Shown: positions 21,151-37,166 of the stretch, one piece after another
Numbering within the stretch: the first letter of the stretch is position 1
Layout: every line of letters starts with the position of its first letter
IMG/VR virus record: IMGVR_UViG_3300013092_000001
Coordinates: 1-37,166 of that record
Length of the DNA stretch: 37,166 nucleotides
Strand: one strand, 5' to 3'
Origin: a virus
Notes under the pieces: model-generated
Database searches by the model: none
Seen by the model: only the letters and a program-made list of their open reading frames with translations
What the model was told of the DNA's origin: nothing
Translations under genes and position numbers: made by a program

Positions 21151-21824
21151 ACCTCTCGACGAAGCTGGCGGCGCTTCCCGGGTCGGTGCGCAGCGGGGCC
21201 ACGCTTGCGCTCCTTGGCGCGCTGACGGGCTTTGTGGCCGGTTGGGGCGTCTTCCATGCCAGACCCGCACCGGTCGAGTCCTACGCCCATGCAGCGCGAC
21301 AGCGCGATTCCAGCCTCGTGCTGGAACGGACGCCGGACGCGGCGGCCAAGCCGACGGCCCTGATCCCGAAGGGCGGCACGGTCGAGCGGATCGTGCGGGT
21401 AAAGGTTCAGCCGAATGCCGTGCCGGTTGCTCGACCAGAACAACCGTCTGCGCCTATCGCCGAAGTGACGACAGCGCCGCCGGTTACGGTGCCGAACGTT
21501 CCACGTGGAACATTGTCGACGGTTGATTCAGTGACCTGCCCGTCGGTCGATATCGAATTGGCGCTGGTGCGCATGAAGGACCAGACGCGCCGGGTCGTAG
21601 TCTCCTCGCCCAATGGCAAGGTTTTAGGCGGTGTCGATATTCCGGTCGAATCTGCCAAGGTGCCGCCCTTGATCCGGTGGGCCGTAGGCCCGATGGTCGA
21701 TCCGATCACGCGCAAGATCGGCGCTTTCCTGACGCGCGAGATCGGTCCTTTCCGGGCGATCGCGACGGCGCTGCCGAATGGCAACGGCTGGCAGACCGGC
21801 GTCGGAGTGGCCCTCCGGTTCTAG
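21147..21824 (+). CDS. Membrane-anchored envelope protein, last gene of the lysis cassette
   Basis: The 225-residue product starts at GTG 21147 (GTGA overlap). It has one N-terminal membrane segment (about 14-33), then a Pro/Ala/Val-rich, probably extended periplasmic section (about 35-130). The C-terminal part ends GWQTGVGVALRF. A final aromatic residue after alternating hydrophobics resembles the last strand of outer-membrane proteins. Together these suggest a protein spanning the periplasm, possibly with a spanin-like role, but there is no lipobox and no known family match. A perfect -10 hexamer follows the gene. Confidence 0.7.
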   Translation: MNLSTKLAALPGSVRSGATLALLGALTGFVAGWGVFHARPAPVESYAHAARQRDSSLVLERTPDAAAKPTALIPKGGTVERIVRVKVQPNAVPVARPEQPSAPIAEVTTAPPVTVPNVPRGTLSTVDSVTCPSVDIELALVRMKDQTRRVVVSSPNGKVLGGVDIPVESAKVPPLIRWAVGPMVDPITRKIGAFLTREIGPFRAIATALPNGNGWQTGVGVALRF

Positions 21825-21833
21825 AATAATTCC

Positions 21834-21842
21834 TGTTATAAT
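21834..21842 (+). promoter_or_regulatory. Extended -10 promoter element after the lysis genes
   Basis: TGT followed by TATAAT (21837-21842) is an exact extended -10 box. No good -35 hexamer is seen at 17 bp, which is tolerable for extended -10 promoters. It lies 10 bases after the last lysis gene and 24 bp upstream of the next -35 box, so the early operon may have tandem starts. Confidence 0.5.
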
Positions 21843-21860
21843 CTGCGCGGGAATGGTCAC

Positions 21861-21894
21861 GGGGCTTGCGGAATCGCAAGCCCCGCGCTATTAT
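21861..21894 (+). promoter_or_regulatory. Early promoter with palindromic operator
   Basis: TTGCGG (21866-21871) and TATTAT (21889-21894) are separated by exactly 17 bp, a good sigma70 promoter. The -35 lies inside a perfect 10-bp inverted repeat (GGGGCTTGCG at 21861-21870, loop GAAT, CGCAAGCCCC at 21875-21884). The inner 16 bp CTTGCGGAATCGCAAG recurs at 29184 with the same -10 spacing, so it is read as an operator. The start would be near 21901, about 54 bases before ATG 21955. Confidence 0.7.
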
Positions 21895-21954
21895 GTCGAG
21901 GTCGGCAACAGCGATGGCGAAATGCCAGATTCTCGAGACGGAGAGGCCGAGCCC

Positions 21955-22224
21955 ATGAGCCGCGATCGTTCCCTTCTGCACGTCAAGCACCTCGCCGCCT
22001 TCATCGGATTCTGCGAAGGGCGAGGGTGGATGCGGCTAGCGAGCTGCGGTGAATTCGAAGCCTTGCGCATGCACAATCCGGCCATGCAAGATCCGCTCAT
22101 CGTGCACCGGAAGGCACATACCCTCGCAGGTGGTGAGCCGGTGCACCTGACCGTCTGGGGCAACAGCGAAATCCTTGCGCGAGAGTTCATTGCGCAATCA
22201 CGCCGCTTGCGCAGAGTAGAGTAA
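21955..22224 (+). CDS. Small hypothetical protein, first gene of the early operon
   Basis: The 89-residue protein begins MSRDRSLLHVKHLAAFIGFCEGRGW and starts at ATG 21955 after GGAGAGG. It is a mixed helix/strand protein without a membrane segment; no domain is recognised. The frame is open from 21778, but that part overlaps the lysis gene and the promoter. As the first gene after the operator-controlled promoter and just before the HTH gene, it could be an early regulator or anti-host factor; nothing in the sequence decides this. Confidence 0.7.
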   Translation: MSRDRSLLHVKHLAAFIGFCEGRGWMRLASCGEFEALRMHNPAMQDPLIVHRKAHTLAGGEPVHLTVWGNSEILAREFIAQSRRLRRVE

Positions 22225-22235
22225 CGACCTACCTT
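22206..22235 (+). promoter_or_regulatory. Possible third promoter with operator half-site
   Basis: CTTGCG (22206-22211) matches one half of the 16-bp operator. TTGCGC (22207-22212) and TACCTT (22230-22235) have a 17-bp spacing, the same geometry as at 21866 and 29185. The -10 is poor (three of six consensus bases). It could provide autoregulated expression of the HTH gene that follows, or be chance. Confidence 0.3.
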
Positions 22236-22266
22236 CGTGGTGATTGTTACCCAACTCGGAGGCTCG

Positions 22267-22518
22267 ATGGATAGCCCGGCTCGCCTTCCCTTGACTGACT
22301 CGAAGTTTTCCGCATGGATCGACAAGACCGGAGCGCCGACGATCGCGCGCGCTCTCGGCGTCACGAAGTGGACCGTGTACGGCTGGCGCGATGGGGCCCG
22401 TGGCCTCCCGCGCGGTACACGGCCCGACCCTTCCCGGCTCGGGGAAATCCTGAAGCTGGCAAAGGGCAAGCTGAAGGCCACGGACATCTACCCTCACCGC
22501 AACGGGAGACACGCATGA
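22267..22518 (+). CDS. Cro-like helix-turn-helix regulator
   Basis: The 83-residue protein carries a DNA-binding helix-turn-helix at about 24-42 (PTIARALGVTKWTVYGWRD), typical of Cro/YdaS-like small regulators. A basic C-terminal tail follows. ATG 22267 is preceded by GGAGG; an in-frame GTG at 22237 would add ten residues without a better ribosome site. It overlaps the exonuclease gene by ATGA. It is the best candidate in the window for the factor that binds the two 16-bp operators, although that link is inferred. Confidence 0.85.
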   Translation: MDSPARLPLTDSKFSAWIDKTGAPTIARALGVTKWTVYGWRDGARGLPRGTRPDPSRLGEILKLAKGKLKATDIYPHRNGRHA

Positions 22519-23558
22519 CCGCACCAGAAAGCAGCACGCCCGCCATTCCCGCACCTGCACTTCCCCTCATCCTTCGCAACGATCCGGCTGCGATGGCCGA
22601 TCGCCGGGCAGCATGGCTCGCCGATCGGCGCCGTGCCATCACCGCGACCGACGCCGCGATGATCCTCGGCCTCTCGAAGTTCGGCGGCCCGATGGACGTC
22701 TTTCTCGACAAGACCGGGCAGGCTATCGAGAAGCCGGTCTCGGCCGCGATGGAGTGGGGCCGCCGGCTCGAACAGCCGATCCTCATCGCGTACGCCGATG
22801 CGATCGGCGGCGGGATCGCCTTCCGCGATTCCTTTACGCTCTCGCGCGCCCGCGAGATTCCGCTGGTCGGCGCCACGCTCGACGCGGTGCGGCTCGATGA
22901 TGGGCGGCCGGTGGATGCCAAGAACGTCCGTTTTCCCTCGGCCGAGTGGGGGGAAAGCGGCACGGACAAGATCCCGCTCTACTACGCCGTGCAACTGTAC
23001 CTGCAGATGTTCGTCGAGGAAAAAGGCATCGCGGATCTCGCCGTGCTCTTCGGCGGCCATGATTTCCGGATCTACACGCTGCAGCGCACGGAAAGCACGA
23101 TGGACTGGATCATCCAGCAATGCCTCGCCTTCTGGACGAAGCATGTCGAGGTGATGGTCCCACCGCCCATCGACGGATCGGCGCAGTACGCCGACTACCT
23201 CGCACGGACGTTGGTGCAGACGAGCGACGTCATGCTCGATGCGTCGCCGGAGTCGGAAGAAATCGCCAGCAAGCTCTCCTTCGCACTCGACGAGGAGGCG
23301 GAGGTCGAATCGCGCATCGAGACCTACAAGTCGACGCTGAAGGCCGCGATCGGGGAAGCGAAGGGTCTCGCCGGCGCCGGCTTCCGCGCAACGTGGTCAA
23401 CCTCGAAGGACCGCAAGAGCACCGACTACGAATCGGTCGCGGCAGATCTGCTGCGGCTTGCGGGTGTGGCCGAGTTCGGCCATGTGTTCAACGACCTCGT
23501 GCTGAAGCATTCGACCACAAAGCCCGGCACGCGCAGTTTCCGATTCAGCCCGAAATAG
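22515..23558 (+). CDS. YqaJ-like recombination exonuclease
   Basis: The 347-residue product has the lambda-exonuclease/YqaJ fold. It opens with WLADRRRAITATDAAMILGLSKF (core ITATDAAMILGLS, 42-54), then Glu80 and Glu86 in MEWGRRLEQPI, Asp123 in GATLDAV, and the metal-binding Asp134-x-Lys136 in RPVDAKNV. Gln160 in YYAVQLYLQMF is the last signature. It would resect 5' strands for annealing by the next gene's product. The C-terminal third (about 240-347) is an extra helical region. It is co-translated with the HTH regulator. Confidence 0.88.
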   Translation: MTAPESSTPAIPAPALPLILRNDPAAMADRRAAWLADRRRAITATDAAMILGLSKFGGPMDVFLDKTGQAIEKPVSAAMEWGRRLEQPILIAYADAIGGGIAFRDSFTLSRAREIPLVGATLDAVRLDDGRPVDAKNVRFPSAEWGESGTDKIPLYYAVQLYLQMFVEEKGIADLAVLFGGHDFRIYTLQRTESTMDWIIQQCLAFWTKHVEVMVPPPIDGSAQYADYLARTLVQTSDVMLDASPESEEIASKLSFALDEEAEVESRIETYKSTLKAAIGEAKGLAGAGFRATWSTSKDRKSTDYESVAADLLRLAGVAEFGHVFNDLVLKHSTTKPGTRSFRFSPK

Positions 23559-23591
23559 GCGAGTCTCATTTACCCTGAGCGAGGAGAGCCC

Positions 23592-24665
23592 GTGACCGCA
23601 ACGGTTCAGCCCCAAGGACAGCCACCCGCCACCCGTGTTGAGGTCTACACGCCGCCGGCCGCTGTCGCTGTCACCCAAACCAACGAGACGGCCTCGGCCG
23701 TGCTCGCCGCCCGCGCCAGCGCCGAGGTGCAGGCGCGCGCGCTCATCGCGATCAACCGGCCGCGATCCTTTGACAACTTCCGCCTGCGCATTCTGAACGC
23801 CTGTGCACGCACCCGGTTCGCCGATGCGGCGATGTACGAGCGGAAGATCGGCACGAACACCATCACCGGCCTGTCAATCCGTTTTGCCGAAGAATGCGTA
23901 CGACACTACGGCAATCTCGACGTCAGCGCCATTCTGGTCAGCGAGGATGATGATCGCCGGGTCTTCGATGTCGCGGCCATCGACCTCGAAACGAACTCCG
24001 GTTATCGGACGCCGGTGGTCGTGACGAAGACGGTCGAACGCAAGAACACGAGCGGGGCCGAGGTCATCCGGTATCGCAAGAACTCCAAGGGCGAGACGAT
24101 CGGCATCATCCGGGCCGACGACGACGCGCTGCTCGTCAAGCAGAGCGCGTTGCTCGCCAAGGCGCAGCGCGAAGTGGTACTGAAGCACATTCCCTCGGAC
24201 GTGAAGGAAGAGGCAATCGAGGCGATCGAGAAGCTGCTGAAGTCAAAGGTCGAGGCTGACCCCGAGGGCGAAAAGAAGAAGGTCATCGATGGCTTCTTCA
24301 GCGTGGGCGTCATGCCGGCGCAGGTCGAGGAGTTCCTTGGCCATTCGCTCGGGACGCTGAATCCGGCCGAGCTGCACATCCTGCGCCGCATCTGGCGCGG
24401 AGTAGCCGATGGCGAGGGCACATGGGCCGAGGTGATGGCCGAGAAGGGCAAGGCGGCTTCGGCGCCGGCGTCGCCATCTGGTGCCAACAGCGGACTCGCC
24501 AAGGCGGCGGAAAAGGCTGCGCCAGTGCCGGCGGCTCCTTTGCCGGTGCTGCAGATGCCGGAACGCGTCGCCAGCCTGTTCAAGGCCGAGGAGGCCGGTG
24601 CGCCACTCTCGGACGAGGAAAAGGAGGAGCTGCGTCAGTGGCGGCTCGACCATCCGCCGGTCTAG
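23592..24665 (+). CDS. Probable phage recombination (single-strand annealing) protein
   Basis: The 357-residue protein lies directly between the YqaJ exonuclease and a RecF/SMC-like ATPase. It has a conserved-looking core NTITGLSIRFAEECVRHYGNL (shown as GLSIRFAEECVRHYGN, about 92-107), then strands around RRVFDVAAIDLETNSGY, and LVKQSALLAKAQREVVLKHIP (about 178-198). A helical tail includes FLGHSLGTLNPAELHILRRI. This pattern occurs in phage proteins in recombination clusters, and position fits an annealing protein. No exact family is assigned. The last 80 residues are Ala/Pro-rich and partly disordered. GTG 23592 follows GAGGAG. Confidence 0.65.
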   Translation: MTATVQPQGQPPATRVEVYTPPAAVAVTQTNETASAVLAARASAEVQARALIAINRPRSFDNFRLRILNACARTRFADAAMYERKIGTNTITGLSIRFAEECVRHYGNLDVSAILVSEDDDRRVFDVAAIDLETNSGYRTPVVVTKTVERKNTSGAEVIRYRKNSKGETIGIIRADDDALLVKQSALLAKAQREVVLKHIPSDVKEEAIEAIEKLLKSKVEADPEGEKKKVIDGFFSVGVMPAQVEEFLGHSLGTLNPAELHILRRIWRGVADGEGTWAEVMAEKGKAASAPASPSGANSGLAKAAEKAAPVPAAPLPVLQMPERVASLFKAEEAGAPLSDEEKEELRQWRLDHPPV

Positions 24666-24676
24666 ATTAGCATCAC

Positions 24677-24702
24677 GGCGCGCGGTATTTCGGCCGCGCG
24701 CC
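24677..24702 (+). other. GC-rich hairpin in the gap before the ATPase gene
   Basis: GGCGCGCGG (24677-24685) pairs perfectly with CCGCGCGCC (24694-24702) around an eight-base loop. It has no T-run after it (TGTCTC), so it may be an mRNA-processing, attenuation or protection hairpin rather than a full terminator. Confidence 0.45.
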
Positions 24703-24729
24703 TGTCTCACTCGCAACGAGGAGCCATTC

Positions 24730-25989
24730 GTGAAGATCCTGAAGCTGACTGCCGAGAACATCAAGAAGCTCGTCGCGGTCGAAATCACTCCCTCTGGCAA
24801 CATGGTACAGATCACCGGGCCGAACGGCTCGGGGAAGTCGTCCGTGCTTGACGCCATCTTTTGGGCGCTCGCCGGCACGAGCGGCGTTGATGCGGTGCCG
24901 GTCCGCACCGGGGCGCAGAAAGCCCGCATCCGGTTGGATCTCGGCGATCTCATCATCACCCGCCGATTTACCGAAGGTGGTGGGACGTCGCTGGTCGTCG
25001 AGAATGGAGAGGGTGCGCGATATCCCTCGCCTCAATCCATGCTCGATGCCCTGCTTGGGGCACTCTCCTTCGATCCACTCGCGTTCGCCCGCATGGACAC
25101 GCGTGCGCAGATGGAGGCGGTACGAAAGATCGTGCCGCTCGATGTCGACCTCGACGCGCTCGACGCCACGATCAAGGCGGCCGAGGAAGCCCGGCGCGAC
25201 GCGAAGCTGCAGGCGAAGAGCTTTCACGCCCGCCGGGCCGCCGTCATCGTCGACGTCACGCTTTCGCAGGAGTCGGTCGACGTGCAGGCATTGCTTGCCG
25301 AGCATCGAGACGCTGTTGCGCGAACGGCGGAACGCGACGCGAAGATTCGTCGGCGCGAGCAGATCCATGTCGAACTCGATGAGACGGCGCACCGCGTTGA
25401 CGAGCTTCGCCGCCAAGCCGATCTGCTCGAAGAGCACCAATCCCACCTTGAAGAGCAGAGAGAACAACTCTCCGAACTGATCGGCGGGGACGCGGGCATT
25501 GGCGTGACTCCCGACGCGATCCTTGCGGAGATCGCCAACGCGGAGAAGATCAACGCGAACGCGAATGCGGCGAAGGAAGATGCCCATCTGCGCGAAGCCA
25601 TCGAGCGCGCCGAACGGCAGACGGTCGAAGCGGACGCTGATATCGATACGCGCCGCGCCGAGAAAGCGGCAGCGATGGCGCGCGCACCAATGCCGATCGA
25701 TGGGCTTGCCTTCGGCGAGGACGGATTGCTCTACAACGGCATCCCGCTGGCGCAGGCATCGAGTGCCGAACAGTTGCGCGTCAGCGTGGCCATCGCCATG
25801 AAGCTCAATCCGACGCTCCGGGTGCTCCGCATCAAGGATGGCTCCCTGCTCGATCTCAGTTCGCTTTCCCTCGTCGCCGAGATGGCCGATGCCGAGGACT
25901 ATCAGGTCTGGATCGAGCGCGTCGATACGACGGGCAAGGTCGGCATCGTGCTTTCCGACGGCCACGTCGTCGTGGAGGGTACACCATGA
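24730..25989 (+). CDS. RecF/SMC-like AAA ATPase
   Basis: The 419-residue product has an ABC-type head split by a coiled coil: Walker A GPNGSGKSS (30-38), a long charged helical middle (about 140-310, with ELDETAHRVDELRRQADLLEEHQ in the register of a coiled coil), then SSAEQLRVSVAIAMKLNPTL (signature-like, near 341-360). A weak Walker B region follows (LRVLRIKDGSLLDLSSL). It is shorter than SbcC/RecN. Placed after the exonuclease and annealing genes, it probably assists recombination-dependent replication. GTG 24730 follows GAGGAG. Confidence 0.85.
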   Translation: MKILKLTAENIKKLVAVEITPSGNMVQITGPNGSGKSSVLDAIFWALAGTSGVDAVPVRTGAQKARIRLDLGDLIITRRFTEGGGTSLVVENGEGARYPSPQSMLDALLGALSFDPLAFARMDTRAQMEAVRKIVPLDVDLDALDATIKAAEEARRDAKLQAKSFHARRAAVIVDVTLSQESVDVQALLAEHRDAVARTAERDAKIRRREQIHVELDETAHRVDELRRQADLLEEHQSHLEEQREQLSELIGGDAGIGVTPDAILAEIANAEKINANANAAKEDAHLREAIERAERQTVEADADIDTRRAEKAAAMARAPMPIDGLAFGEDGLLYNGIPLAQASSAEQLRVSVAIAMKLNPTLRVLRIKDGSLLDLSSLSLVAEMADAEDYQVWIERVDTTGKVGIVLSDGHVVVEGTP

Positions 25990-26195
25990 GGCGCACGCGT
26001 CAACCTCGCCGCCGGACGGAGGCTTCCCGGTGGGTCCGGCTCTACCGGATCTATCTCGACAAGAATCACTCGATCGATTACGTCGAGGATGAGTTCGAGA
26101 AGGCCCGGCTCGTCGTGAAGGTTATGGAGATCCTTGGGCGTTCCTGTCGCGTGACGTCCGACAACTCCGGGATCATCTTCCGAGGCCGTCGATAG
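25986..26195 (+). CDS. Small basic protein coupled to the ATPase gene
   Basis: The 69-residue, Arg-rich protein starts in an ATGA overlap with the ATPase stop. It shows a strand-helix-strand pattern (WVRLYRIYLDKN, IDYVEDEFEKARLVVKVMEILG, CRVTSDNSGIIFRGRR). No family is recognised. Its basic N-terminus suggests nucleic-acid contact, but this is inferred. The overlap and continuous operon support that it is translated. Confidence 0.65.
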   Translation: MRRTRQPRRRTEASRWVRLYRIYLDKNHSIDYVEDEFEKARLVVKVMEILGRSCRVTSDNSGIIFRGRR

Positions 26196-26244
26196 CATTC
26201 TCCTTTCGCACTTCACGTTTTTCCCTCTTTTTCTGGAACCTGCA

Positions 26245-26754
26245 ATGGACAAGACTCCCGCCGCACCCGTTGTCGCAGCAGACGCCACCGTAGGCGAGAA
26301 CAAGCCGGCCGTGGCCACGATGGCTGTCCAGACGGCCTACGACGCCTCGCTCCTGCGTGATGCGCTCCGCGCGCGCATTGAGGACCTGAACAGCCTCGCG
26401 AAGAAGTGTCAGGACAACAACTACCTTCGGCAGGCGTCGGAAATCCGCATGGATGCCGACCGCCTGAAGCTGGAATATCTCATCAAACTCGAACCGCAGG
26501 CGGAATTGTCGTTCGGGCCGAGCGATCCCCGCGATGCGGCGAAGTTGCTCATTGGCACGGGGCTGCGTGCGACGATCAAGGATCGCGCGCTCGTCGAGAA
26601 GATCCTCGACAAGCTGGCTGGCCCGGTGGCCGACGTGCTGCACAACGGCATCGTGCTTGGCTACGAGACCGGCAACGCCGGCGCCTCCTCGGCCATCTCC
26701 GCGCTCGCTTTGCGCGCCTTCGCCCGCACGATCGAGAGCGGCCAAGACGCATGA
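26245..26754 (+). CDS. Hypothetical helical protein in the early operon
   Basis: The 169-residue protein is mainly helical (YDASLLRDALRARIEDLNSLAKK, about 32-54; EIRMDADRLKLEYLIKL). It ends with GLRATIKDRALVEKILDKLAG and a Gly/Ala/Ser-rich segment. The gap before it is pyrimidine-rich (26199-26235) and the ribosome site (GGAA) is weak, unlike neighbours, so translation may depend on other signals. No function is recognised. Confidence 0.65.
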   Translation: MDKTPAAPVVAADATVGENKPAVATMAVQTAYDASLLRDALRARIEDLNSLAKKCQDNNYLRQASEIRMDADRLKLEYLIKLEPQAELSFGPSDPRDAAKLLIGTGLRATIKDRALVEKILDKLAGPVADVLHNGIVLGYETGNAGASSAISALALRAFARTIESGQDA

Positions 26755-27134
26755 GGCGGCCGGCGCGGTTCGTGCAAGCGACACTCTTCGACACGATCGA
26801 TCGTCGTCCCGGCCCCGTGCACCGGGACGCGGCGATCGCGCAGACGATCCGTCGCTGCAAGCTCTCGAAGGACGAAACCTTCCTCGTGAAGACGTCGCAA
26901 GCCAAGCTGGTGAACAGGGCCAGCCTGCGAAAGCATCAATTCACCGTCGATGATGTCGGCCTCATTCTCGACGAGGCCGGCCTTGGCCGCGAGATGATCT
27001 TGCGACGGCGCATCGTCTCCGCGATTCTCAATGGCGGGCGAGGCAAGCTCTGGAAGGTCAGCACCATGATGGTGATGTCGCATGATCCGATCCGCCACGC
27101 CCGTCGTGTACCCGTCTGGTTCCTGATTCGCTGA
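26751..27134 (+). CDS. Hypothetical basic protein
   Basis: The 127-residue protein starts at ATG 26751 (ATGA overlap). It begins MRRPARFVQATLFDTIDRR and has a helical core with KLSKDETFLVKTSQAKLVNRASL, then LILDEAGLGREMILRRRIVSAIL. It is strongly basic, and its helix pattern might form a winged-helix-like DNA-binding unit, but no family is recognised. The frame is open upstream to 26406 only as shadow of the previous gene. Confidence 0.65.
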   Translation: MRRPARFVQATLFDTIDRRPGPVHRDAAIAQTIRRCKLSKDETFLVKTSQAKLVNRASLRKHQFTVDDVGLILDEAGLGREMILRRRIVSAILNGGRGKLWKVSTMMVMSHDPIRHARRVPVWFLIR

Positions 27135-27145
27135 GGTATACAGGA

Positions 27146-27331
27146 ATGCCCGCTCTGCTAGAAATCGGTGATTGCCCGGTGCACGGCACGGTCGAAGTGA
27201 TCCGCGTCGGCTCGGTGCGGATGCCGGAAAAGAAGACGCGCGCGCTCTGCCTGCTCTGCTACATCGAGTTCTTCGACGAGTCGGTAACTAAGTGCGAGAA
27301 TCCACGTCTCGCCGAGGTACCCACCGCATGA
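27146..27331 (+). CDS. Small putative zinc-binding protein
   Basis: The 61-residue product has Cys10-x2-His13 in GDCPVHG and Cys35-x2-Cys38 in ALCLLCY, a spacing that can hold one zinc (treble-clef or zinc-ribbon type). The remainder is short and acidic. It overlaps the VRR-NUC gene by ATGA. Small zinc proteins of this kind are common in phage early regions; the target is unknown. Confidence 0.7.
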   Translation: MPALLEIGDCPVHGTVEVIRVGSVRMPEKKTRALCLLCYIEFFDESVTKCENPRLAEVPTA

Positions 27332-27837
27332 CCGCGATCGACTTCGAAGACCTCGATGAGGCTGCGCAACGCATCGTGCGCGAACGTCTCGGCACCACGC
27401 CAGACAAGATTCGTGCCGATCTGCTGACCGCCCTTGGGATCGGCCCGGAACGATTGAAGCGCCACTACAGCTATGGGGAAAGTCGCATCCAGCGCGCCTT
27501 CATCGCGCGCGTGCGCACCGATCCTCGCACGCGAGATCTCGTGATCGCGGCGGTCCCCAATGGTGCGCGCCGTTCGAAGATTCAGGGCGGTCGTTTGAAA
27601 GCCGAGGGCATGCTGGCCGGTTATCCCGATGTGCTGGTGGACGTCGCCTGCGGCGGCTACCACGGCCTCCGCTTTGAATTCAAACAGCCCGGCGGCAAGA
27701 CCTCGCTCGCGCAGGGTGCTGTCGGCATGAAGCTCATGGCCGCCGGCTATTGCGTGTTCCTCGTCGATGAGGAGCTGACCGCATTCGAAGTGCTGATCGA
27801 TTACCTGAACGGCACCATTCGCCGGGAGATGCCATGA
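27328..27837 (+). CDS. VRR-NUC domain nuclease
   Basis: The 169-residue product has an N-terminal helical part and a VRR-NUC (PD-(D/E)xK-type) domain: ESRIQRAFIARVR with Glu51, GYPDVLV with Asp101, and RFEFKQPGGK with Glu117-x-Lys119. ALAQGAVGMKLMAAGYCVFLVD-type ending is visible as SLAQGAVGMKLMAAGY with Gln129. Such single-domain phage nucleases act on branched DNA, including Holliday junctions. With the exonuclease, annealing protein and ATPase, it completes a recombination set. ATG 27328 is fixed by the ATGA overlap. Confidence 0.85.
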   Translation: MTAIDFEDLDEAAQRIVRERLGTTPDKIRADLLTALGIGPERLKRHYSYGESRIQRAFIARVRTDPRTRDLVIAAVPNGARRSKIQGGRLKAEGMLAGYPDVLVDVACGGYHGLRFEFKQPGGKTSLAQGAVGMKLMAAGYCVFLVDEELTAFEVLIDYLNGTIRREMP

Positions 27838-28334
27838 TTGCGCCGCGTTGGATCGGCAAGGCCGCTTTCGGCCTCATTTTCGCTGCTGCGGTGATCGGCG
27901 GCGTGCACTATTACACGTCCCCGCACTTGCCGCCGCTCCCGACGACCCTGTCTGAGATCAAGGGAAAGGTCTCGATCTACCCCGGCACGGAACGGATGAT
28001 CGACTATCACGCGCTCGCGAAATGCCTGAAGCTTCCACAGGCTCCGTTCAGCCAGATCCGATTTTTCGTCGTTGATCGCGTGCACGTGCTCGGCAACCGA
28101 TGGGGCGGCTACGGCGGCATTGCCTTCGGCCCGACGACGCGAGACGGCTTCGCGGCTGTCGTGCTTGCGAGCGAGGACACCGCCCAACGGTGGCTATGGC
28201 TGCACGAGGAGGCGCACGTATTGGCGATCATCAACAAGATCCCGAACCAGCAGAATCATCCGCCCGAGATCTTCAACGCGCGATGCATGACGGCAAATCC
28301 GTTCTTCGCTGACGCCCCCTCGGACGCCCCATGA
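27834..28334 (+). CDS. Membrane-anchored HExxH protein in the early operon
   Basis: The 166-residue product has one N-terminal membrane segment (about 8-26) followed by a Pro-rich stalk. A soluble domain then carries WLHEEAHVLAI (122-132), giving His124-Glu125-x-x-His128. A later NHPPEIFN (about 141-148) offers Glu145 or His142 as third ligand. This is a zincin-type motif in a short extracytoplasmic domain. It is unrelated in sequence to the HExxH protein of the lysis cassette (20770). Function is unknown; surface modification or superinfection effects are possible. It overlaps both neighbours (ATGA). Confidence 0.65.
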   Translation: MIAPRWIGKAAFGLIFAAAVIGGVHYYTSPHLPPLPTTLSEIKGKVSIYPGTERMIDYHALAKCLKLPQAPFSQIRFFVVDRVHVLGNRWGGYGGIAFGPTTRDGFAAVVLASEDTAQRWLWLHEEAHVLAIINKIPNQQNHPPEIFNARCMTANPFFADAPSDAP

Positions 28335-28621
28335 GAAAGAAGCCAAATGATGCGCACGCGGTGGAGCGATTCTACCGCGCGATGCATACCGAACCATTCA
28401 ATACCCAGATGGCCGCGATTGAATGGCTCGGGAAGCGATTTGTGCGCGACAAGGATCGTCGGATGCTGGCCACGGCAGTCTCGACCGACGAGATGCGTAC
28501 GGCACCACTGCGCGTCGCCATTGGCCTTCGCCGGCGCTTGAAGGCGCGCGCGCTCAATCGTGTGATCCGCTGGACACTGCAGCTTCAAGCCCTGCTCGAT
28601 CGCGAGCTGGACACGCAGTAG
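28331..28621 (+). CDS. Small basic helical hypothetical protein
   Basis: The 96-residue protein starts in an ATGA overlap. It is Arg/Lys-rich and predicted helical throughout (AVERFYRAMHTEPFNTQMAAIEWLG, then RVAIGLRRRLKARALNRVIRW, shown by their cores). No domain is recognised. Nucleic-acid binding is suggested by charge only. Confidence 0.65.
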   Translation: MRKKPNDAHAVERFYRAMHTEPFNTQMAAIEWLGKRFVRDKDRRMLATAVSTDEMRTAPLRVAIGLRRRLKARALNRVIRWTLQLQALLDRELDTQ

Positions 28622-28646
28622 CCCATACCCCGAAACAACGCGAGCA

Positions 28647-28913
28647 ATGGCAACCTTCATCGAGCAGACCTTTCACATCGCCGGCGGCTATGAGATCACG
28701 CTGACCGCGAAAGGCGCATCGATCGTCGACACCGCCTCGGGCGACCCGGGCACCGACGAATATACCGATCAGGTCATGCTTGAACCGACGACCTCGGCCG
28801 AAGCCCGTGAACTCTCGGTTGCCCTCCGTTTCGCGCAGCGTCGCATCGAAGCGATCTGGCACGAAATGCGCAACGTCGAAGATGCTGGCCGCCCGAAAAA
28901 GATATCCACATAG
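28647..28913 (+). CDS. Small hypothetical protein at the end of the early operon
   Basis: The 88-residue protein has an N-terminal beta pair (TFHIAGGYEITLTAKGASIVDTAS, visible core GGYEITLTAKGAS) and a C-terminal helix (ARELSVALRFAQRRIEAIWHEMR). No family is recognised. Its last codons contain the first DnaA-box-like site, so the end of this gene overlaps the probable origin. Confidence 0.65.
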   Translation: MATFIEQTFHIAGGYEITLTAKGASIVDTASGDPGTDEYTDQVMLEPTTSAEARELSVALRFAQRRIEAIWHEMRNVEDAGRPKKIST

Positions 28914-29110
28914 AGCGATGTGGATAACTACGATGATTCACGACGGCGGCAGTTGTTCACAAGCTTTCCACAGGCAATTCACATTCGATGGCGCCAACTA
29001 AAAGCCAAACACGTGCAGGGTTAGCCCGCTTTTCCACATTTCCACATGCCTCTACTATTACTAGTCTTCATTCTATCAGCGGTTTAGTAGCACAGACGGG
29101 ATGTGGAAAG
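28902..29110. other. Probable DnaA-dependent replication origin
   Basis: Six 9-mers close to the DnaA box TTATCCACA lie within 210 bp: ATATCCACA (28902), TGTGGATAA (28919, reverse of the perfect consensus), CTTTCCACA (28964), TTTTCCACA (29030), ATTTCCACA (29038) and TGTGGAAAG (29102, reverse). The first two form a perfect 9-bp inverted repeat with a six-base spacer. A locally AT-richer stretch (29050-29090) could be the unwinding region. This is the only long gap (28914-29267) in the window. It fits an origin opened by host DnaA; no phage initiator gene was seen. Confidence 0.65.
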
Positions 29111-29126
29111 CTCTGAGATTGCCGAT

Positions 29127-29151
29127 GACACCCAAAGGGTGATAGGGTGTC
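29127..29151 (+). other. Inverted repeat beside the origin
   Basis: GACACCC (29127-29133) pairs with GGGTGTC (29145-29151); an alternative CACCC-AAA-GGGTG hairpin lies inside it. It sits between the DnaA boxes and the promoter at 29184. It might be a cruciform, a terminator of the early operon or a protein site; there is no T-run. Confidence 0.4.
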
Positions 29152-29183
29152 AGGAGAGAGGGAATTCTGGCTCAGATTGAGGA

Positions 29184-29213
29184 CTTGCGGAATCGCAAGG
29201 ATGATGCTACACT
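29184..29213 (+). promoter_or_regulatory. Second operator-controlled promoter
   Basis: TTGCGG (29185-29190) and TACACT (29208-29213) have a 17-bp spacing. The -35 is embedded in CTTGCGGAATCGCAAG (29184-29199), identical over 16 bp to the palindrome at 21865, with the -10 box starting 24 bp after the first base in both. The start would fall near 29220, about 48 bases before ATG 29268. A shared regulator is the simplest reading. Confidence 0.7.
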
Positions 29214-29267: not shown

Positions 29268-29855
29268 ATGACCGAAACCGCAGAGCACGCAGCCGCGACG
29301 TTTGATTTCGGCGATGGATGGGGCGCGGTTCCTGCAACGCGACGGCCGAACGGCGCGTGGTGCGCGAAAAGCGCGAAGATCGGGTCGTACGCGAAGATCG
29401 GGTTGTACGCGAAGATCGGGTCGTACGCGAAGATCGGGTTGTACGCGAAGATCGGGTCGGACGCGGAGATCGGGTCGTACGCGAAGATCGGGTCGGGCGC
29501 GGAGATCGGGTCGGACGCGAAGATCGGGTCGGGCGCGGAGATCGGGTCGTACGCGGAGATCGGGTCGGGCGCGGAGATCGGGTCGGGCGCGGAGATCCTG
29601 CAGGTCGGCCCGGTGGGTTCGCGCAATGCGATGTTGCACGTCTATCCGCTGAAGGATGGCAGCGCAGCGTGCTCGACCGGCTGTTTCTGCCAGCACACGC
29701 TCGCCGAGCTGCTGGCTGCCTGCGAGGATACGCATGGCGCCGACTCGCCGCACACCCGCGACTACAAGCTGGTTGCGACCGCTGCGTTCGCGGTGATCGA
29801 AGCGCGCATTGCTGCACGCGCGAAGCCGGCGAAAGCTGTGAAGCGGGGAAAGTGA
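29268..29855 (+). CDS. Hexapeptide-repeat (left-handed beta-helix) protein
   Basis: The 195-residue product has 12 exact hexapeptide units at about 36-107, type A-(K/E)-I-G-(S/L)-(Y/D/G), plus a partial thirteenth. Ile at every sixth position with a small residue four later is the left-handed beta-helix pattern, enough for about four turns. A C-terminal domain follows, with GCFCQHTLAELLAACEDTHG (about 130-149; Cys131, Cys133, His135) and a final helix. It has no catalytic His triad of acyltransferases within the repeat. GAGGA precedes ATG 29268. It is the first gene after the probable origin and the operator promoter. Confidence 0.82.
   Translation: MTETAEHAAATFDFGDGWGAVPATRRPNGAWCAKSAKIGSYAKIGLYAKIGSYAKIGLYAKIGSDAEIGSYAKIGSGAEIGSDAKIGSGAEIGSYAEIGSGAEIGSGAEILQVGPVGSRNAMLHVYPLKDGSAACSTGCFCQHTLAELLAACEDTHGADSPHTRDYKLVATAAFAVIEARIAARAKPAKAVKRGK
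29373..29588 (+). repeat. Twelve tandem 18-bp repeats inside the beta-helix gene
   Basis: The unit gcgaagatcgggtcgtac repeats 12 times without a gap, in frame with the gene, with changes mostly at the codons for Lys/Glu and Tyr/Asp/Gly. Near-identity at DNA level, not only protein level, suggests recent expansion or ongoing copy-number change by slippage. Confidence 0.95.
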
Positions 29856-29858
29856 CCG

Positions 29859-30107
29859 ATGCGTGTCACTGCGACGAAGATTGAAATCGAGCGGCCCTTC
29901 CTCCGTGTGATTGCCGGTGAGATCGCACGGCAAGCAAAGGGTCACCTGCAATTCAATGACCAGTTGCGCTGTCCGGCCGGCGCGGCCTTCTTCTCGAAGA
30001 TTGAGGATCTAGTCGAACACCTCCTCATCTGCGATCTCTATCACGCGGAGATAGAAGGTGTCACGCTTGCCGGTCCCTCGACGTCTCATGCGGTGGAGAA
30101 GTCATGA
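29859..30107 (+). CDS. Small hypothetical protein
   Basis: The 82-residue protein starts 3 bp after the repeat gene stop. It opens with a strand MRVTATKIEIERPF, then a helix LRVIAGEIARQAKG, then a short Cys-containing section and a helix KIEDLVEHLLICDL. No family is recognised. It ends in an ATGA overlap with the HTH gene. Confidence 0.65.
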   Translation: MRVTATKIEIERPFLRVIAGEIARQAKGHLQFNDQLRCPAGAAFFSKIEDLVEHLLICDLYHAEIEGVTLAGPSTSHAVEKS

Positions 30108-30319
30108 CACGAATCAGCCACTACACCAAGCCGATGATCTCGCGGGCGCTCGGCGTCTCGCTCTCAGCGGTCACGGCCCGGATTGCTGTGGGCCGCATGA
30201 AGACCGAGCGCGTGAATGGCGTGACGCTGGTTCCGGCCGCCGAGGTGCGGCGTTGGGATCGCGAACGCCAGCGCGCCGCGCGGGATCGTTCGGCGCGTTC
30301 CGGCGGGGAGGTCCAATGA
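30104..30319 (+). CDS. Small excisionase-like HTH protein
   Basis: The 71-residue protein has a MerR/excisionase-type helix-turn-helix: PMISRALGVSLSAVTARIAVG (about 10-30, core ISRALGVSLSAVTARIA), then MKTERVNGVTLVPAAEVRRW, which fits the wing and following helix. The C-terminal tail is Arg-rich. It probably binds DNA. No integrase is present, so excision is unlikely and transcription control more likely. Confidence 0.75.
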   Translation: MTRISHYTKPMISRALGVSLSAVTARIAVGRMKTERVNGVTLVPAAEVRRWDRERQRAARDRSARSGGEVQ

Positions 30320-31613: not shown

Positions 31614-32864
31614 GTGAAGCCTTCGTCCCTGCCCGCCATCCGGAATCGCATCACCGGCCACGGCGATGTTGACCCGGCGCAACTCCTCGCAAACGCGCGG
31701 AACTTTCGCCGGCACCCGAACGTGCAACGTGACGCCTTGCGCGGATCGCTTGACGAACTCGGCTGGCTGAAAACCATCATCGTCAACGAGAGTACCGGCA
31801 ACGTCGTCGACGGGCACGCCCGGATCGAGGAGGCCTTGCAGCGGCGCGAGCCGTTGGTCCCGGTGACCTATATCAACCTGACCGAGGCCGAGGAGCGGTT
31901 GGCGCTCGCCGTGCTGGACGAGATCTCCGCAATGGCGGTGCGCGACGATGACGCGCTCGCGGCGCTGCTCGGCGAGATCGAGACGACCGACACGGCGCTG
32001 ACGGCCTTGCTTGATTCGATGCAGCCGGCCGATGCCGGCTCCTCTGGAATCCTCGATGGAATGGACCCGGATGATGTGCCCGATCCGCCGCCGGTTCCGC
32101 GCTCGCGTCTCGGTGACATTTATCAGCTTGGAAACCACAGGTTGGTCTGCGGCGATTCTGCCGATGCCGCTGTATGGGAATCCTTGATGGCGGGTAGGGG
32201 GGGGGCCGACATGCTTTGGACCGACCCTCCGTACGGTGTCGCGTATGTCGGCAAGACGAAAGACGCGCTGACGATCGAGAACGACGCCCTGAGCACCGAG
32301 GGATTGTCGGATCTCCTGCGCGCCGTCTTCGATCTCGCGCTGGTGCACGGCCGACCCGGGGGCGCTTGGTATGTCGCTTCGCCCGCCGGGCCCTTGCAGG
32401 AGACCTTCGGCGCCCTGCTCATCGAACTCGGCGTCATGCGGCAGTGCTTGGCGTGGGTGAAGGATCAGTTCGTGATGGGGCGGTCGGACTATCACTATCG
32501 CCACGAGCCCGTCTACTATGGCTGGAAGCCCGGCGCGGCCCATCGCTGGTTCGGTGGTCGCGACAAGGATTCCGTGCTCGACGAGCCTCGGCCGCGCCGC
32601 AGCGTGGAGCACCCCACGATGAAGCCGGTCGCCTTAATTCAGCGCTGCATCGAGAATTCAACACTACCCGGAGACACCGTCGTCGACCCCTTTGGAGGCT
32701 CGGGCACCACGCTCATCGCCGCCGAAGCATGCGGTCGAACGGCTCTGATGATTGAACTTGACCCGCGCTATATAGATGTCATCGTATCCCGATGGGAACG
32801 CGCGACGGGAAGAGCGCCGGTGCTGACGCGGTTGACAGATAAGGAGATTGACGGTGACTCATAA
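31614..32864 (+). CDS. ParB-like domain fused to a DNA methyltransferase
   Basis: The 416-residue product has an N-terminal ParB/Srx-like domain (NARNFRRHPNVQRDALRGSL; TGNVVDGHARIEEA, about 61-74) and a beta-class methyltransferase. Catalytic motif IV DPPY is at 204-207, and AdoMet-binding motif I DPFGGSGTTL at about 355-364. It methylates adenine (N6) or cytosine (N4) in DNA, which can shield phage DNA. GTG 31614 directly abuts the previous stop. A run of nine G (32197-32205) sits just before motif IV. The gene partly overlaps the next start at 32854. Confidence 0.88.
   Translation: MKPSSLPAIRNRITGHGDVDPAQLLANARNFRRHPNVQRDALRGSLDELGWLKTIIVNESTGNVVDGHARIEEALQRREPLVPVTYINLTEAEERLALAVLDEISAMAVRDDDALAALLGEIETTDTALTALLDSMQPADAGSSGILDGMDPDDVPDPPPVPRSRLGDIYQLGNHRLVCGDSADAAVWESLMAGRGGADMLWTDPPYGVAYVGKTKDALTIENDALSTEGLSDLLRAVFDLALVHGRPGGAWYVASPAGPLQETFGALLIELGVMRQCLAWVKDQFVMGRSDYHYRHEPVYYGWKPGAAHRWFGGRDKDSVLDEPRPRRSVEHPTMKPVALIQRCIENSTLPGDTVVDPFGGSGTTLIAAEACGRTALMIELDPRYIDVIVSRWERATGRAPVLTRLTDKEIDGDS
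32197..32205 (+). repeat. Nine-G homopolymer inside the methyltransferase gene
   Basis: The run encodes part of AGRGGADM, directly before the DPPY motif. Loss or gain of one G would frameshift the enzyme before its active site. Homopolymer tracts in modification genes are known phase-variation sites in bacteria. It could also be a place of sequencing error. Confidence 0.9.
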
Positions 32865-33378: not shown

Positions 33379-33700
33379 ACGTGTACACCGACAGGAAGCG
33401 CTCTCTGCGCGGCCGATTGCCGAACTCGTTGCCGGCTATCCGGATCTCGCGCACCGCGTGCAGTCCGGCGTTGCCTTTCGTCTCGAAGCCGATCCGACCG
33501 GCGGCACTCCGAAGCATCTGCGAACGGGCGTGGATCTCGCGCGTGCTGAATTTGGCGGGCTGGCAATCTTGCTGGTGCGCAAGGGCCTCATCACCGAAGC
33601 CGAGTATTTCGCGGCCATCGTCGAGGGCGTGGAAGACGAGGTCGATCGCATGGAGCGCGCGATGGAAGGCACAACCGGCGTGAAGATCAAGCTCCTCTGA
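33362..33700 (+). CDS. Hypothetical protein after the TerS candidate
   Basis: The 112-residue product starts at ATG 33362 inside the end of the previous gene, after GGGGAGGAAGGG. It has a mid-section AHRVQSGVAFRLEADPTGG, a helix FGGLAILLVRKGLITEAEYF and a helix EDEVDRMERAMEG. No family is recognised with confidence. It may be a packaging accessory by position. The longer frame from 33323 would run through the Asp-rich region of TerS. Confidence 0.7.
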   Translation: MRQQDERVHRQEALSARPIAELVAGYPDLAHRVQSGVAFRLEADPTGGTPKHLRTGVDLARAEFGGLAILLVRKGLITEAEYFAAIVEGVEDEVDRMERAMEGTTGVKIKLL

Positions 33701-33753: not shown

Positions 33754-34266
33754 ATGACCGAACCGACCGCCGTTCTTTATGCGCCCGCCGGCGTGACCGC
33801 CATCAACGGTGCGAACGGCATTGTGTACATCGTGTCCGCGACGCGCGAAGTCACGGTGCCAGTTTCGATGATCCCGACGCTGCTCGCCGCCGGCTTCCTG
33901 CAATCCTCGGTGGAGCCGGCGTCGATCACGAATGCGATGATCTCGCCGACGGCCGCGATTGCGAAGTCGAAGCTTGCCGCACTGGCGATCGTGAATGCCG
34001 ACGTGGACGCTGCCGCTGCGATCGCCAGCTCGAAACTGGCCGATGGTCCGACCGCGACGCCGACGGCTTCGAAGATCGCGAAGTACGACGCAAGCGCGAA
34101 CCTTGCCGCCGCGACCGGCGTGACCGTTGGTGCCGGCAAGGTGATCGGCGTTCAGGCGGCAGCGATCCCGAATGCGAGCGCCGGAACGATCATCGACGCC
34201 GAGGCACGCACGGCGTTGAATGCCCTGCTCGCCGCGTGTCGCACGCACGGTCTCATCGCGACGTAA
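33754..34266 (+). CDS. Fibre-associated or minor structural protein
   Basis: The 170-residue product is Ala/Thr/Ser-rich. It has a short beta N-terminus (AVLYAPAGVTAINGANGIVYIV) and repeated ITNAMISPTAAIAKSKLAAL and AAIASSKLADG segments. Close relatives of these (VTNAMINAAANIADTKL) appear in the large fibre at 34396. The pattern is typical of phage fibre shafts. GGAGGAG precedes ATG 33754. It may be a minor fibre, a head fibre or a fibre-base component. Confidence 0.7.
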   Translation: MTEPTAVLYAPAGVTAINGANGIVYIVSATREVTVPVSMIPTLLAAGFLQSSVEPASITNAMISPTAAIAKSKLAALAIVNADVDAAAAIASSKLADGPTATPTASKIAKYDASANLAAATGVTVGAGKVIGVQAAAIPNASAGTIIDAEARTALNALLAACRTHGLIAT

Positions 34267-34319
34267 GTACACTGGCCCGGCTGTGACGAGGCTCACGACC
34301 TCCGAACTTCAGGACCCCT

Positions 34320-34367
34320 GACCCGGACCCTGCGCGTTGCTCGCGGGGTTCGGGTCTTGTACCTTTT
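34320..34367 (+). terminator. Intrinsic terminator between fibre genes
   Basis: Bases 34320-34334 (GACCCGGACCCTGCG) pair with 34342-34356 as a 15-bp stem with two G-T wobbles and a seven-base loop, followed by TTGTACCTTTT. This is a good intrinsic terminator. It ends the transcript of the 33754 gene, and would limit read-through into the fibre. Confidence 0.65.
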
Positions 34368-34395
34368 GCCAAACGCCCGAACGAGGTAGCCGGCA

Positions 34396-37166
34396 ATGCC
34401 CGCAACGACCCGCTTCAGTCTCGATGGTGGCTTCGTGCCGCTCGCGCAGGAGATCGGCGGGTTCGTCGCCGGGGATCGCGCCGAGGCGGCGATCCTGATT
34501 ACCGGCTTTGATCCGGTCACCGACGTCATCGAGCAGATCGTCTTCACGGCGAAGCTCAACCCGGCCGACGCCGACAACGCGCCGACGACCGTCCAGAAGG
34601 TGCTCATTCCCGGCAATCCGGCGAATGGCACGATCACCGCGTACGAAGGCGGCGTGACGGTTCTCGCGCAATTCGACCTCCTGCCGGCGGACACGCTGGT
34701 TCTCCTGCAGCAGCACGTGTACGACGTTCGGATCTGGGTCGCACGTTCCGGATCGACGTACGATCGCACGGTGCAGACCGGCAACACGGTCTCCCTGCAG
34801 GGCGTGACGTCGCAAACACAGTACACCTATCCGACGGTTCAATGGGCGTCGATCCAGCACACGCCGACGACGATCGCCGGGTACGGGATCACGGACGCAT
34901 ACACGAAGACCGAGAGCGACGCGCGCTATCTCCTCGCGGCGGGCGGCGATGGCTCGCACCTGACGAACCTCTCGGCCTCGCAACTGTCGAGCGGCATCGT
35001 CCCCTCGGCCCGCATGGTCGGCGCCTATGCCGGGATTACCGGCCTCGGCACGCTCGGCTCGCTCGCCGTCACGGGCTCGATCACGGCCGCGTCGTTCGTG
35101 GGCGCGCTCACGGGATCCGTGACCGGCAACGTCGCGGGCGTCGTGACCGGCTCGCTCGTCGGCAACGCATCGACCGCGACTCAGCTTCTCAATCCTCGCA
35201 CGATCAACGGTGTCGCCTTCGACGGCACGGCGAATATCACGATCACGTCGACGCTCACGAATGCGCTGACGTTCGGGACGTACCTCACCGGCGGGAGCTT
35301 CAACGGCTCGGCGCCGGTCACGATCGGGATCAACGCGGCAACGGCCGCGACGCCCTCGACGATCGTCGCGCGCGATGCCTCGGGCAATATCACCGGGAAC
35401 CTCATCTCGGCGTACGACTTCGTCGGGCCGCTGACGGGCGTTGTCACGGGCTCGCTGATCGGCAACGCGGACTCCGCGACGAAGCTCGCGGTTGCGCGCT
35501 CGATCACGCTGACCGGCGACGTCACCGGCACGAACACGACGGATTTCTCGGCGGGCGTCTCGATCGCCCTCGCGATTGCGGCGGGCGCCGTGACGAATGC
35601 GATGATCAACGCGGCGGCGAACATCGCCGATACGAAGCTCGGCACGATCGCGACCGCGTCGAAGGTCTCAAACTCGGCGACGACGGCGACGGCATTGAAC
35701 ACGGCGTCGGCCATTGTGGCGCGCGACGGCTCGGGCAACTTTGCGGCCGGGACGATCACGGCGACGATCACCGGCAACGCCGACACGGCGACGAAGCTCT
35801 CGACCGCGCGCACGTTCGCGATCACGGGCGACGGCTCCGGCTCGTCCTCGGCGGATCTCGCGACCGGCGTCTCGATCGCGCTGACGCTGGCAACCGTGCC
35901 GACGACGAAGGGCGGGACCGGCCTGACGAGCTTCACGGCGGGCGACGTGCCTTATTTCGCGACGGGGACCGCGCTCTCGAAGCTCGGCATCGGCGCCGCG
36001 AATGCGGTCATGACGTCGAGTGGCACGGCGCCGCAATGGTCGACGGCCTTGACCGGCTTGACCTCCGTGACCTCGACGGCCTTCGTCGGTACGCTCTCGA
36101 CGGCCGCGCAACCGAACGTGACGAGCCTCGGGACGCTAACCGCGCTCACGATCTCCGGCGCACTCTCGGCCGGGGCGACGACCTGCACGTCGACGATCGC
36201 GGTCGCGGGAACGTCGTCCTTCGGGAATACGCTGACGATCAGCCTCGGCGGCGCGGCGATCACGGGGAACGTGACGATCTCCGGCACGCTCGCCAGCGGC
36301 TCGCAAACGATCACGGGAACGATGATCTCCTCGGGCGCGTTGACGGTCTCCTCGGGCGGCGCCTCGATCACGGGCGCGGTGACGCTCTCCTCGACGCTGG
36401 CGATCGGCGGCGCGCTCTCGGGCGTGACAACGCTCGCGACGTCCTCGACGATCAACGGACAGACGATCAGCGCGACGGCCGCGCTCACGGGCTCGCTGAC
36501 TGTCGCGACGACGCTCGGCGTGACGGGCGACTTCTCCGTGAATGGCGCACAGTTCACCGTCGCCTCGGCAACCGGGAACGCCGTCCTCGCGGGCACGCTG
36601 ACCGTCAACGGCGCGGCGACGTTCGCGCCTTCGGGCGTCGCGGCGATCCCCGCGACGTTCACGGGCAAGTACGGCGTCTCAGGGGCGGTCAGTCTCGGCG
36701 TGTGGCAACGGCTCGGCGGCGCGGTCGCGGCGGCAATGATCTACGACGACGCGCAATCACCGCTAAACATCGGCGTCGGCACGACAACGGATCATGGCTT
36801 CCGGATCCTGACGAATAACACGACGCGGCTTACCGTCGATCATCTCGGTCGCGTGACGATCGGCGCGACGCCTTTCGGCAATACGAACGTCTTCGGCATC
36901 GAGTTGAACAACGCGTCGACGTCGCTGATCGAGGGCGCGGCGATCGACGTCAACAATGCCGACACGACGGTCGGGAACTATTCCGCGCTCACGCTCTCGC
37001 AAACGGTCGGCGCGACCGGGAACAACGGCGTCACGCTGGCCGCGAAGCATACGAGCCGGACGGGCGGAGCGCGGACTTCGGACTTCGAGCTTTACACCTA
37101 CGCGGTGAGCGCGCCGGTCCTCGCGCTGCAGATCACGAGTGCGCTCGCGGCGACATTCGGCGGGAC
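34396..37166 (+). CDS. Very long tail fibre protein, 3' end beyond the window
   Basis: ATG 34396 (GAGG upstream) opens a frame that remains open to the last base, at least 923 codons. The N-terminus (MPATTRFSLDGGFVPLAQEIG; first 150 residues) is a compact beta domain likely to attach to the virion. AGYGITDAYTKTESDARYL (near 160-178) is a recurrent fibre motif. Long Thr/Ala/Ser/Gly-rich repeats with VTGNVAG/TGSLVGNA and GALTVSSG-type units follow, plus TKGGTGLTSFTAGDVPYF (about 503-520). After about residue 800 the sequence changes to a mixed domain (LTNNTTRLTVDHLGRVTIG) typical of a pre-tip intramolecular chaperone or knob region. It is partial here. Confidence 0.87.
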   Translation, partial: MPATTRFSLDGGFVPLAQEIGGFVAGDRAEAAILITGFDPVTDVIEQIVFTAKLNPADADNAPTTVQKVLIPGNPANGTITAYEGGVTVLAQFDLLPADTLVLLQQHVYDVRIWVARSGSTYDRTVQTGNTVSLQGVTSQTQYTYPTVQWASIQHTPTTIAGYGITDAYTKTESDARYLLAAGGDGSHLTNLSASQLSSGIVPSARMVGAYAGITGLGTLGSLAVTGSITAASFVGALTGSVTGNVAGVVTGSLVGNASTATQLLNPRTINGVAFDGTANITITSTLTNALTFGTYLTGGSFNGSAPVTIGINAATAATPSTIVARDASGNITGNLISAYDFVGPLTGVVTGSLIGNADSATKLAVARSITLTGDVTGTNTTDFSAGVSIALAIAAGAVTNAMINAAANIADTKLGTIATASKVSNSATTATALNTASAIVARDGSGNFAAGTITATITGNADTATKLSTARTFAITGDGSGSSSADLATGVSIALTLATVPTTKGGTGLTSFTAGDVPYFATGTALSKLGIGAANAVMTSSGTAPQWSTALTGLTSVTSTAFVGTLSTAAQPNVTSLGTLTALTISGALSAGATTCTSTIAVAGTSSFGNTLTISLGGAAITGNVTISGTLASGSQTITGTMISSGALTVSSGGASITGAVTLSSTLAIGGALSGVTTLATSSTINGQTISATAALTGSLTVATTLGVTGDFSVNGAQFTVASATGNAVLAGTLTVNGAATFAPSGVAAIPATFTGKYGVSGAVSLGVWQRLGGAVAAAMIYDDAQSPLNIGVGTTTDHGFRILTNNTTRLTVDHLGRVTIGATPFGNTNVFGIELNNASTSLIEGAAIDVNNADTTVGNYSALTLSQTVGATGNNGVTLAAKHTSRTGGARTSDFELYTYAVSAPVLALQITSALAATFGG

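Follow-up and report, generated by a model that had tools for sequence, protein, structure and literature searches.

The stretch of DNA considered here, referred to as a whole as the window, is IMG/VR virus record IMGVR_UViG_3300013092_000001 (37,166 bases), from an uncultured phage. A 16-bp inverted repeat, CTTGCGGAATCGCAAG, has only two exact matches in it, sites A and B, both on the + strand, and each overlaps the -35 box and proximal spacer of a predicted sigma70-type promoter (Table 1). It is probable, judging from the sequence, that these two promoters carry the same operator and that a common repressor turns both of them down. This reading draws on the sequence, geometry, position and statistics of the two copies and on a like layout in distant phages. 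For a phage without a close sequenced relative, it would provide a regulatory map made of two promoters, one operator and one candidate repressor in the first operon.

The shared palindrome and its rarity

Exact matching placed both copies at the positions given by the first-pass annotation (21865 and 29184), whose description of the geometry also proved right at both sites: TTGCGG, taken as the -35 box, starts one base into the palindrome and is followed by a 17-bp spacer and a -10-like hexamer, which begins 24 bp past the first base of the palindrome. Ten of the 16 identical bases lie outside the -35 hexamer, and the nearby flanks differ between the sites except for GCTA-N3-T at the -10. Since sigma70 does not need those ten bases, and since the flanks agree mainly at the -10, the dyad appears to be read by a DNA-binding protein.

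The recurrence of a 16-mer is in itself less exceptional than had been supposed. The earlier argument that such a pair is improbable in 37 kb does not hold, as 10 distinct 16-mers repeat in the window outside the tandem-repeat gene, against 1.7 expected under a first-order Markov model. The other nine lie, every one, in coding regions, and both copies of the palindrome fall inside the 3.65% non-coding fraction of the gene map. This count has the first gene of operon A starting at 21955. An upstream start at 21853, which would place site A in frame, is passed over because it lacks a ribosome-binding site. Moreover, the palindrome is the only duplicated inverted repeat of at least 16 nt (with 6-bp arms) in the window, and any duplicated inverted repeat of that kind appeared in 5 of 400 windows generated by order-2 simulations. 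A chance duplication, for which these few simulated windows and the nine other repeated 16-mers might be cited, is very improbable given that both copies are non-coding, coincide with top-ranked promoters and share one geometry. What goes beyond chance is the combination of a duplicated inverted repeat, its non-coding placement and the promoter ranks.

Two candidate third copies, at 24065 and 33568, with one or two arm mismatches, were rejected: both are coding, and the one at 33568 is not followed by a -10 at the corresponding distance. The CTTGCG/CGCAAG half-sites are not enriched in the window (35 counted against 31.9 expected). The half-site at 22206, formerly proposed to serve autoregulation of a helix-turn-helix (HTH) gene, lies in coding sequence, within the 21955-22224 open reading frame (ORF), with another CTTGCG at 22174. 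That part of the earlier two-promoter regulon has therefore been given up, while the shared-operator part is well supported by position, score, rarity and the distant layouts. The same small gene, which precedes the HTH gene, contains TTGCGC four times (22063, 22175, 22190 and 22207), once within the palindrome ATTGCGCAAT (22189-22198); this group is possibly a second binding cluster or a coding bias.

Two predicted promoters at natural positions

In a sigma70 weight-matrix scan, which scored 74,232 positions with approximate E. coli weights, promoters A and B are the two best intergenic positions. The shared TTGCGG contributes part of both scores. The -10 boxes are evidence independent of this hexamer: -10 scores as good as theirs are reached by 0.02-0.03% of positions window-wide and by 0.2-0.3% of the non-coding ones. 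Both sites combine the two hexamers with a 17-bp spacer, inside the 16-18 bp of sigma70-type promoters, and, as would suit an operator, the same dyad is found at two promoters and overlaps their core elements.

Nearly all genes of the gene map are on the + strand. In order, there are TerL, the portal, the capsid region and the tail, followed by the endolysin and small lysis-type genes, which end at 21824; site A thus falls at the junction between lysis and early genes. After it come a small gene (21955), the HTH protein (22267), the YqaJ exonuclease (22515), the phrog_3657 protein, an SbcC-like ATPase, a resolvase-like protein and more small genes up to 28913. The 354-bp gap that follows, the sole long intergenic gap in the window, holds site B, and downstream of it are a hexapeptide-repeat protein, small genes, a ParB-like DNA methyltransferase and tail-type proteins (33754-37164). 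Because of this order, sites A and B are natural promoter positions of two non-structural gene blocks.

A model of joint repression

From these observations we infer promoter activity, binding, repression rather than activation, and the identity of the binder. A dimeric repressor would bind CTTGCG-N4-CGCAAG, cover the -35 box and exclude the host RNA polymerase, so that operons A (21955 onward) and B (29268 onward) would be turned down together. Measured from the inferred starts (21901 and about 29220), the centre of the dyad falls at about -28, where it overlies the -35 box and proximal spacer. MerR-type activators require a spacer of 19-20 bp; the position of the centre, together with the normal 17-bp spacer, points to steric occlusion rather than to activation of that type. 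At infection, the host polymerase would switch the early genes on, and the growing amount of repressor would later shut them off. Early shut-off of both blocks in this Cro-like manner is the simplest scheme.

The binder would most likely be the HTH protein encoded at 22267, in which case a Cro-like negative feedback loop would be established. This protein is a plausible best candidate because of its match to the phrog_35 repressor family, for which there is no curated cut-off, and its sub-threshold matches to YdaS_toxin (E 0.0027, 18 bits against a cut-off of 30) and P22_Cro (E 0.038, 14.2 bits against 30.2); with these profile scores under the curated cut-offs, it is not assigned to either the Cro or the YdaS family. 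Because its gene appears to be the second one downstream of promoter A, autoregulation, if real, would pass through site A itself.

The same operator could also be read by another binder, such as a second phage DNA-binding protein, a host regulator or a repressor whose gene lies beyond the contig. Many HTH dimers could use such a dyad, and the record is possibly incomplete. The window encodes at least one further candidate HTH protein; weak matches to terminase small subunits and excisionase regulators were obtained for the product of 30104-30319. None of these options is as specific as the repressor-family match of the 22267 protein, and elsewhere in viral contigs, to which this comparison is confined, the exact 16-mer has no promoter-like setting and so gives no sign of a host regulon. 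We hold a different binder to be possible but doubtful.

Similar layouts in other phages

The exact 16-mer occurs in 32 other IMG/VR contigs, and in 14 of these the surroundings are of a single family, next to a distant YqaJ-type gene; in none of the 32 do the flanks resemble promoter A or B. The strict pattern was found in none of the other compared loci. A systematic search of the compared loci recovered a like layout, with other sequences, in two distant phages. One of them (L044, record IMGVR_UViG_3300048836_000092), whose ATPase (38% identity) marks it as a distant relative, repeats TTGACACGGTGGGT with a -10 located 17 bp after TTGACA. Six copies are present in that record (at 8535, 11520, 15081, 17953 and further), each shortly before a start codon, and the one at 8535 occupies the same junction as site A, directly behind the endolysin block and ahead of the early genes. 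The L044 element would be a promoter-like sequence repeated phage-wide. In the other phage (L168), an identical 36-bp palindromic stretch lies over the -35 at two places. A further compared locus, L205, has TTGACAACCACCACCACC with TATAAT at two consensus-like promoters, 755 and 6598.

The distant cases speak for the predicted architecture, not for the sequence or the binder. A practical rule is suggested as well, with further instances in L044 and L168: early promoters of uncultured phages would be marked, where operons start, by an inverted repeat that is duplicated or by a -35-plus-spacer stretch that is identical.

Points against a shared operator and other explanations

Several findings weigh against the two promoters sharing an operator. 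The -35 hexamer TTGCGG agrees with the consensus at just three of six positions, and for this reason a simple consensus promoter scan of the window lists neither site above threshold. Megablast and distant blastn searches against phages gave no relative covering site A or B. Scans of IMG/VR with the YqaJ, TerL, ATPase, tail, methyltransferase, endolysin and resolvase-like proteins as queries, plus one genome scan, yielded only sequences that reach neither site: L037 and L047 are fragments of a relative with 73-80% nucleotide identity elsewhere in the genome, and L127 is an identical contig that begins at 29486. The AlphaFold model of the 22267 protein is poor (pLDDT 47) and unusable. The promoters of L044 do not all retain the left arm of the palindrome; what is conserved there is the -35 and proximal spacer rather than a strict dyad. 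Finally, the longer stem at site A (11 bp) suggests a second role, at the RNA level.

The variable left arm in L044, and a repeated unit that in L044 and L205 consists of the -35 plus 8-12 bp of spacer, would agree with a preferred core-promoter sequence that was copied inside the phage, acts independently of any regulator and is palindromic only incidentally. It is important to note that the two copies in the window cannot tell which part is constrained. Nevertheless, this explanation is rather improbable, since sigma70 makes no demand on the ten bases beyond the hexamer and both copies have a perfect dyad, which at A is extended further.

The stem at site A calls for a separate comment. It is the longest perfect hairpin with a loop of 3-8 nt in the window, lies 36 nt past the last lysis gene and folds with -24.8 to -28.2 kcal/mol (z about -5 relative to shuffles). 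The shared element might be an RNA hairpin, acting as a terminator or leader hairpin at A and as a leader hairpin at B, for example a boxB-like antitermination or protein-binding site carried by both early transcripts. Both copies carry the same loop in the same orientation, and a perfect extended -10, TGTTATAAT, is found just upstream of site A; if the latter promoter were used, hairpin A would sit in a 5' leader. Site B, on the contrary, forms 6 pairs only and folds no better than shuffled sequences (z -0.22). The tails have a poor U tract, and site A, in spite of its strong stem, is absent from the list of the intrinsic-terminator scan. Unlike the nut/boxB sites of lambda, the two copies share no boxA-like sequence upstream, and they have no Rfam match. 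An RNA hairpin would also leave the equal -10 spacing as a coincidence, and it would not be transcribed from promoters A and B themselves. We therefore consider it unlikely as the explanation of the shared element.

A compromise would be a triple role for the palindrome at site A, as -35 and operator, as terminator hairpin for the late transcript and, through the -10, as its U-rich tail, with site B serving as operator only. To this arrangement we give little credence; if true, it would separate late from early transcription by a compact switch. The preferred reading is still that of two promoters turned down through one operator.

Neighbouring genes and other features

The coordinates of the elements discussed above and of the main genes of both operons are collected in Table 1. 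No family matches were obtained in profile searches for the 89-aa protein that opens operon A. The phrog_3657 protein is possibly the recombinase partner of the exonuclease that it adjoins, to judge by its position. Operon B had been labelled as anti-defence, a label supported by two matches, one strong, to a ParB-like DNA methyltransferase, and one weak, to a Lar-like protein (E 0.016).

Table 1. Features of the window around sites A and B.
Feature	Position	Strand	Evidence or remark
Competing promoter element TGTTATAAT	21834..21842	+	Perfect extended -10, poor -35; sigma70 scan rank 28
Site A, extended perfect palindrome CGGGGCTTGCG-GAAT-CGCAAGCCCCG	21860..21885	+	Stem of 11 bp, which might be an RNA hairpin or weakly terminate the lysis operon
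Site A, 16-bp operator-like inverted repeat CTTGCG-GAAT-CGCAAG	21865..21880	+	Exact match
Promoter A (predicted)	21866..21894	+	TTGCGG (21866-21871), 17 bp, TATTAT (21889-21894); sigma70 scan rank 3/74,232
First gene of operon A, 89 aa	21955..22224	+	ORF called with upstream start 21853; 21955 chosen for better ribosome-binding site
HTH protein, 83 aa, candidate repressor	22267..22518	+	phrog_35 transcriptional repressor, E 4.8e-7
YqaJ/RecE-like exonuclease	22515..23558	+	PF09588, E 2.9e-17; phrog_434
Phage protein adjoining the exonuclease	23592..24665	+	phrog_3657 match
SbcC-like AAA ATPase	24730..25989	+	phrog_1499
Site B, 16-bp operator-like inverted repeat, same as site A	29184..29199	+	Exact match
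Promoter B (predicted)	29185..29213	+	TTGCGG (29185-29190), 17 bp, TGC-TACACT (hexamer 29208-29213), extended -10; sigma70 scan rank 5/74,232
First gene of operon B, hexapeptide-repeat (left-handed beta-helix) protein	29268..29855	+	PF00132, E 4e-23
ParB-like/DNA methyltransferase	31614..32864	+	PF01555; phrog_498, E 2.9e-110

Just upstream of site B, the stretch 28881-29120 is the lowest in GC of the window (42%) and contains TCCACA six times, in both orientations, against 0.13 expected, counting among these the TTTCCACA repeats and, at 28919, a perfect DnaA box, TGTGGATAA; it is likely, from these motifs, to be a replication origin. Downstream, the hexapeptide-repeat beta-helix is encoded by an 18-bp tandem repeat of 12.6 copies (29372-29597). 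Because contig L127 breaks inside this repeat, its copy number may vary or be misassembled. The window (at 37166) and L127 stop at one and the same position within a tail-fibre-like gene; this common end of two assemblies suggests either a real genome end or a shared repeat.

Comparison with known systems

The closest parallel in principle is provided by lambda-type phages, in which OL and OR place the same operator at two separate early promoters and one regulator, Cro, turns both down. As in lambda, the window would have a shared operator at two early promoters and has the candidate regulator gene early in one operon. It differs in that each promoter has a single operator rather than three, the two operons are on the same strand and the operator sequence is another; unlike lambda, it shows neither a cI-like divergent gene nor an integrase among the window genes scanned.

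Small phage HTH proteins offer further parallels. In CP-933P, YdaS and PaaR2 bind repeats that overlap their promoters and are also repeated at a distant PL-like region (PMC8630535). As proposed for the window, that system combines a small YdaS-like HTH protein with operators overlapping promoters, although its 18-bp palindromes, with the GTTTAGTAA half, differ in consensus and spacing, and the YdaS similarity found here is sub-threshold. The Cro protein of PY54 binds a single 16-bp palindrome, the operator OR3 (PMC4488713). There too the whole operator is a 16-bp palindrome, but it has one genome copy and serves to repress cI, not cro, whereas here two copies lie over two same-strand promoters. 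At YdaT/CII-type sites a phage HTH protein, YdaT, reads TTGATTN6AATCAA (PMC9986795), likewise an inverted repeat of the form TTG...CAA; arm sequence as well as spacing differ from those of the present dyad (TTGC-N6-GCAA, or 6-4-6), and no YdaT-like protein was found among the window genes scanned.

Finally, L044 resembles the window in having an identical -35 and proximal spacer at several promoters, a 17-bp spacer and a copy just after the endolysin block, and differs in its six copies, its other sequence and a left arm that is not always kept. The biology proposed here follows the familiar lambda-like principle of the shared operator, with an operator sequence that is new within a known kind.

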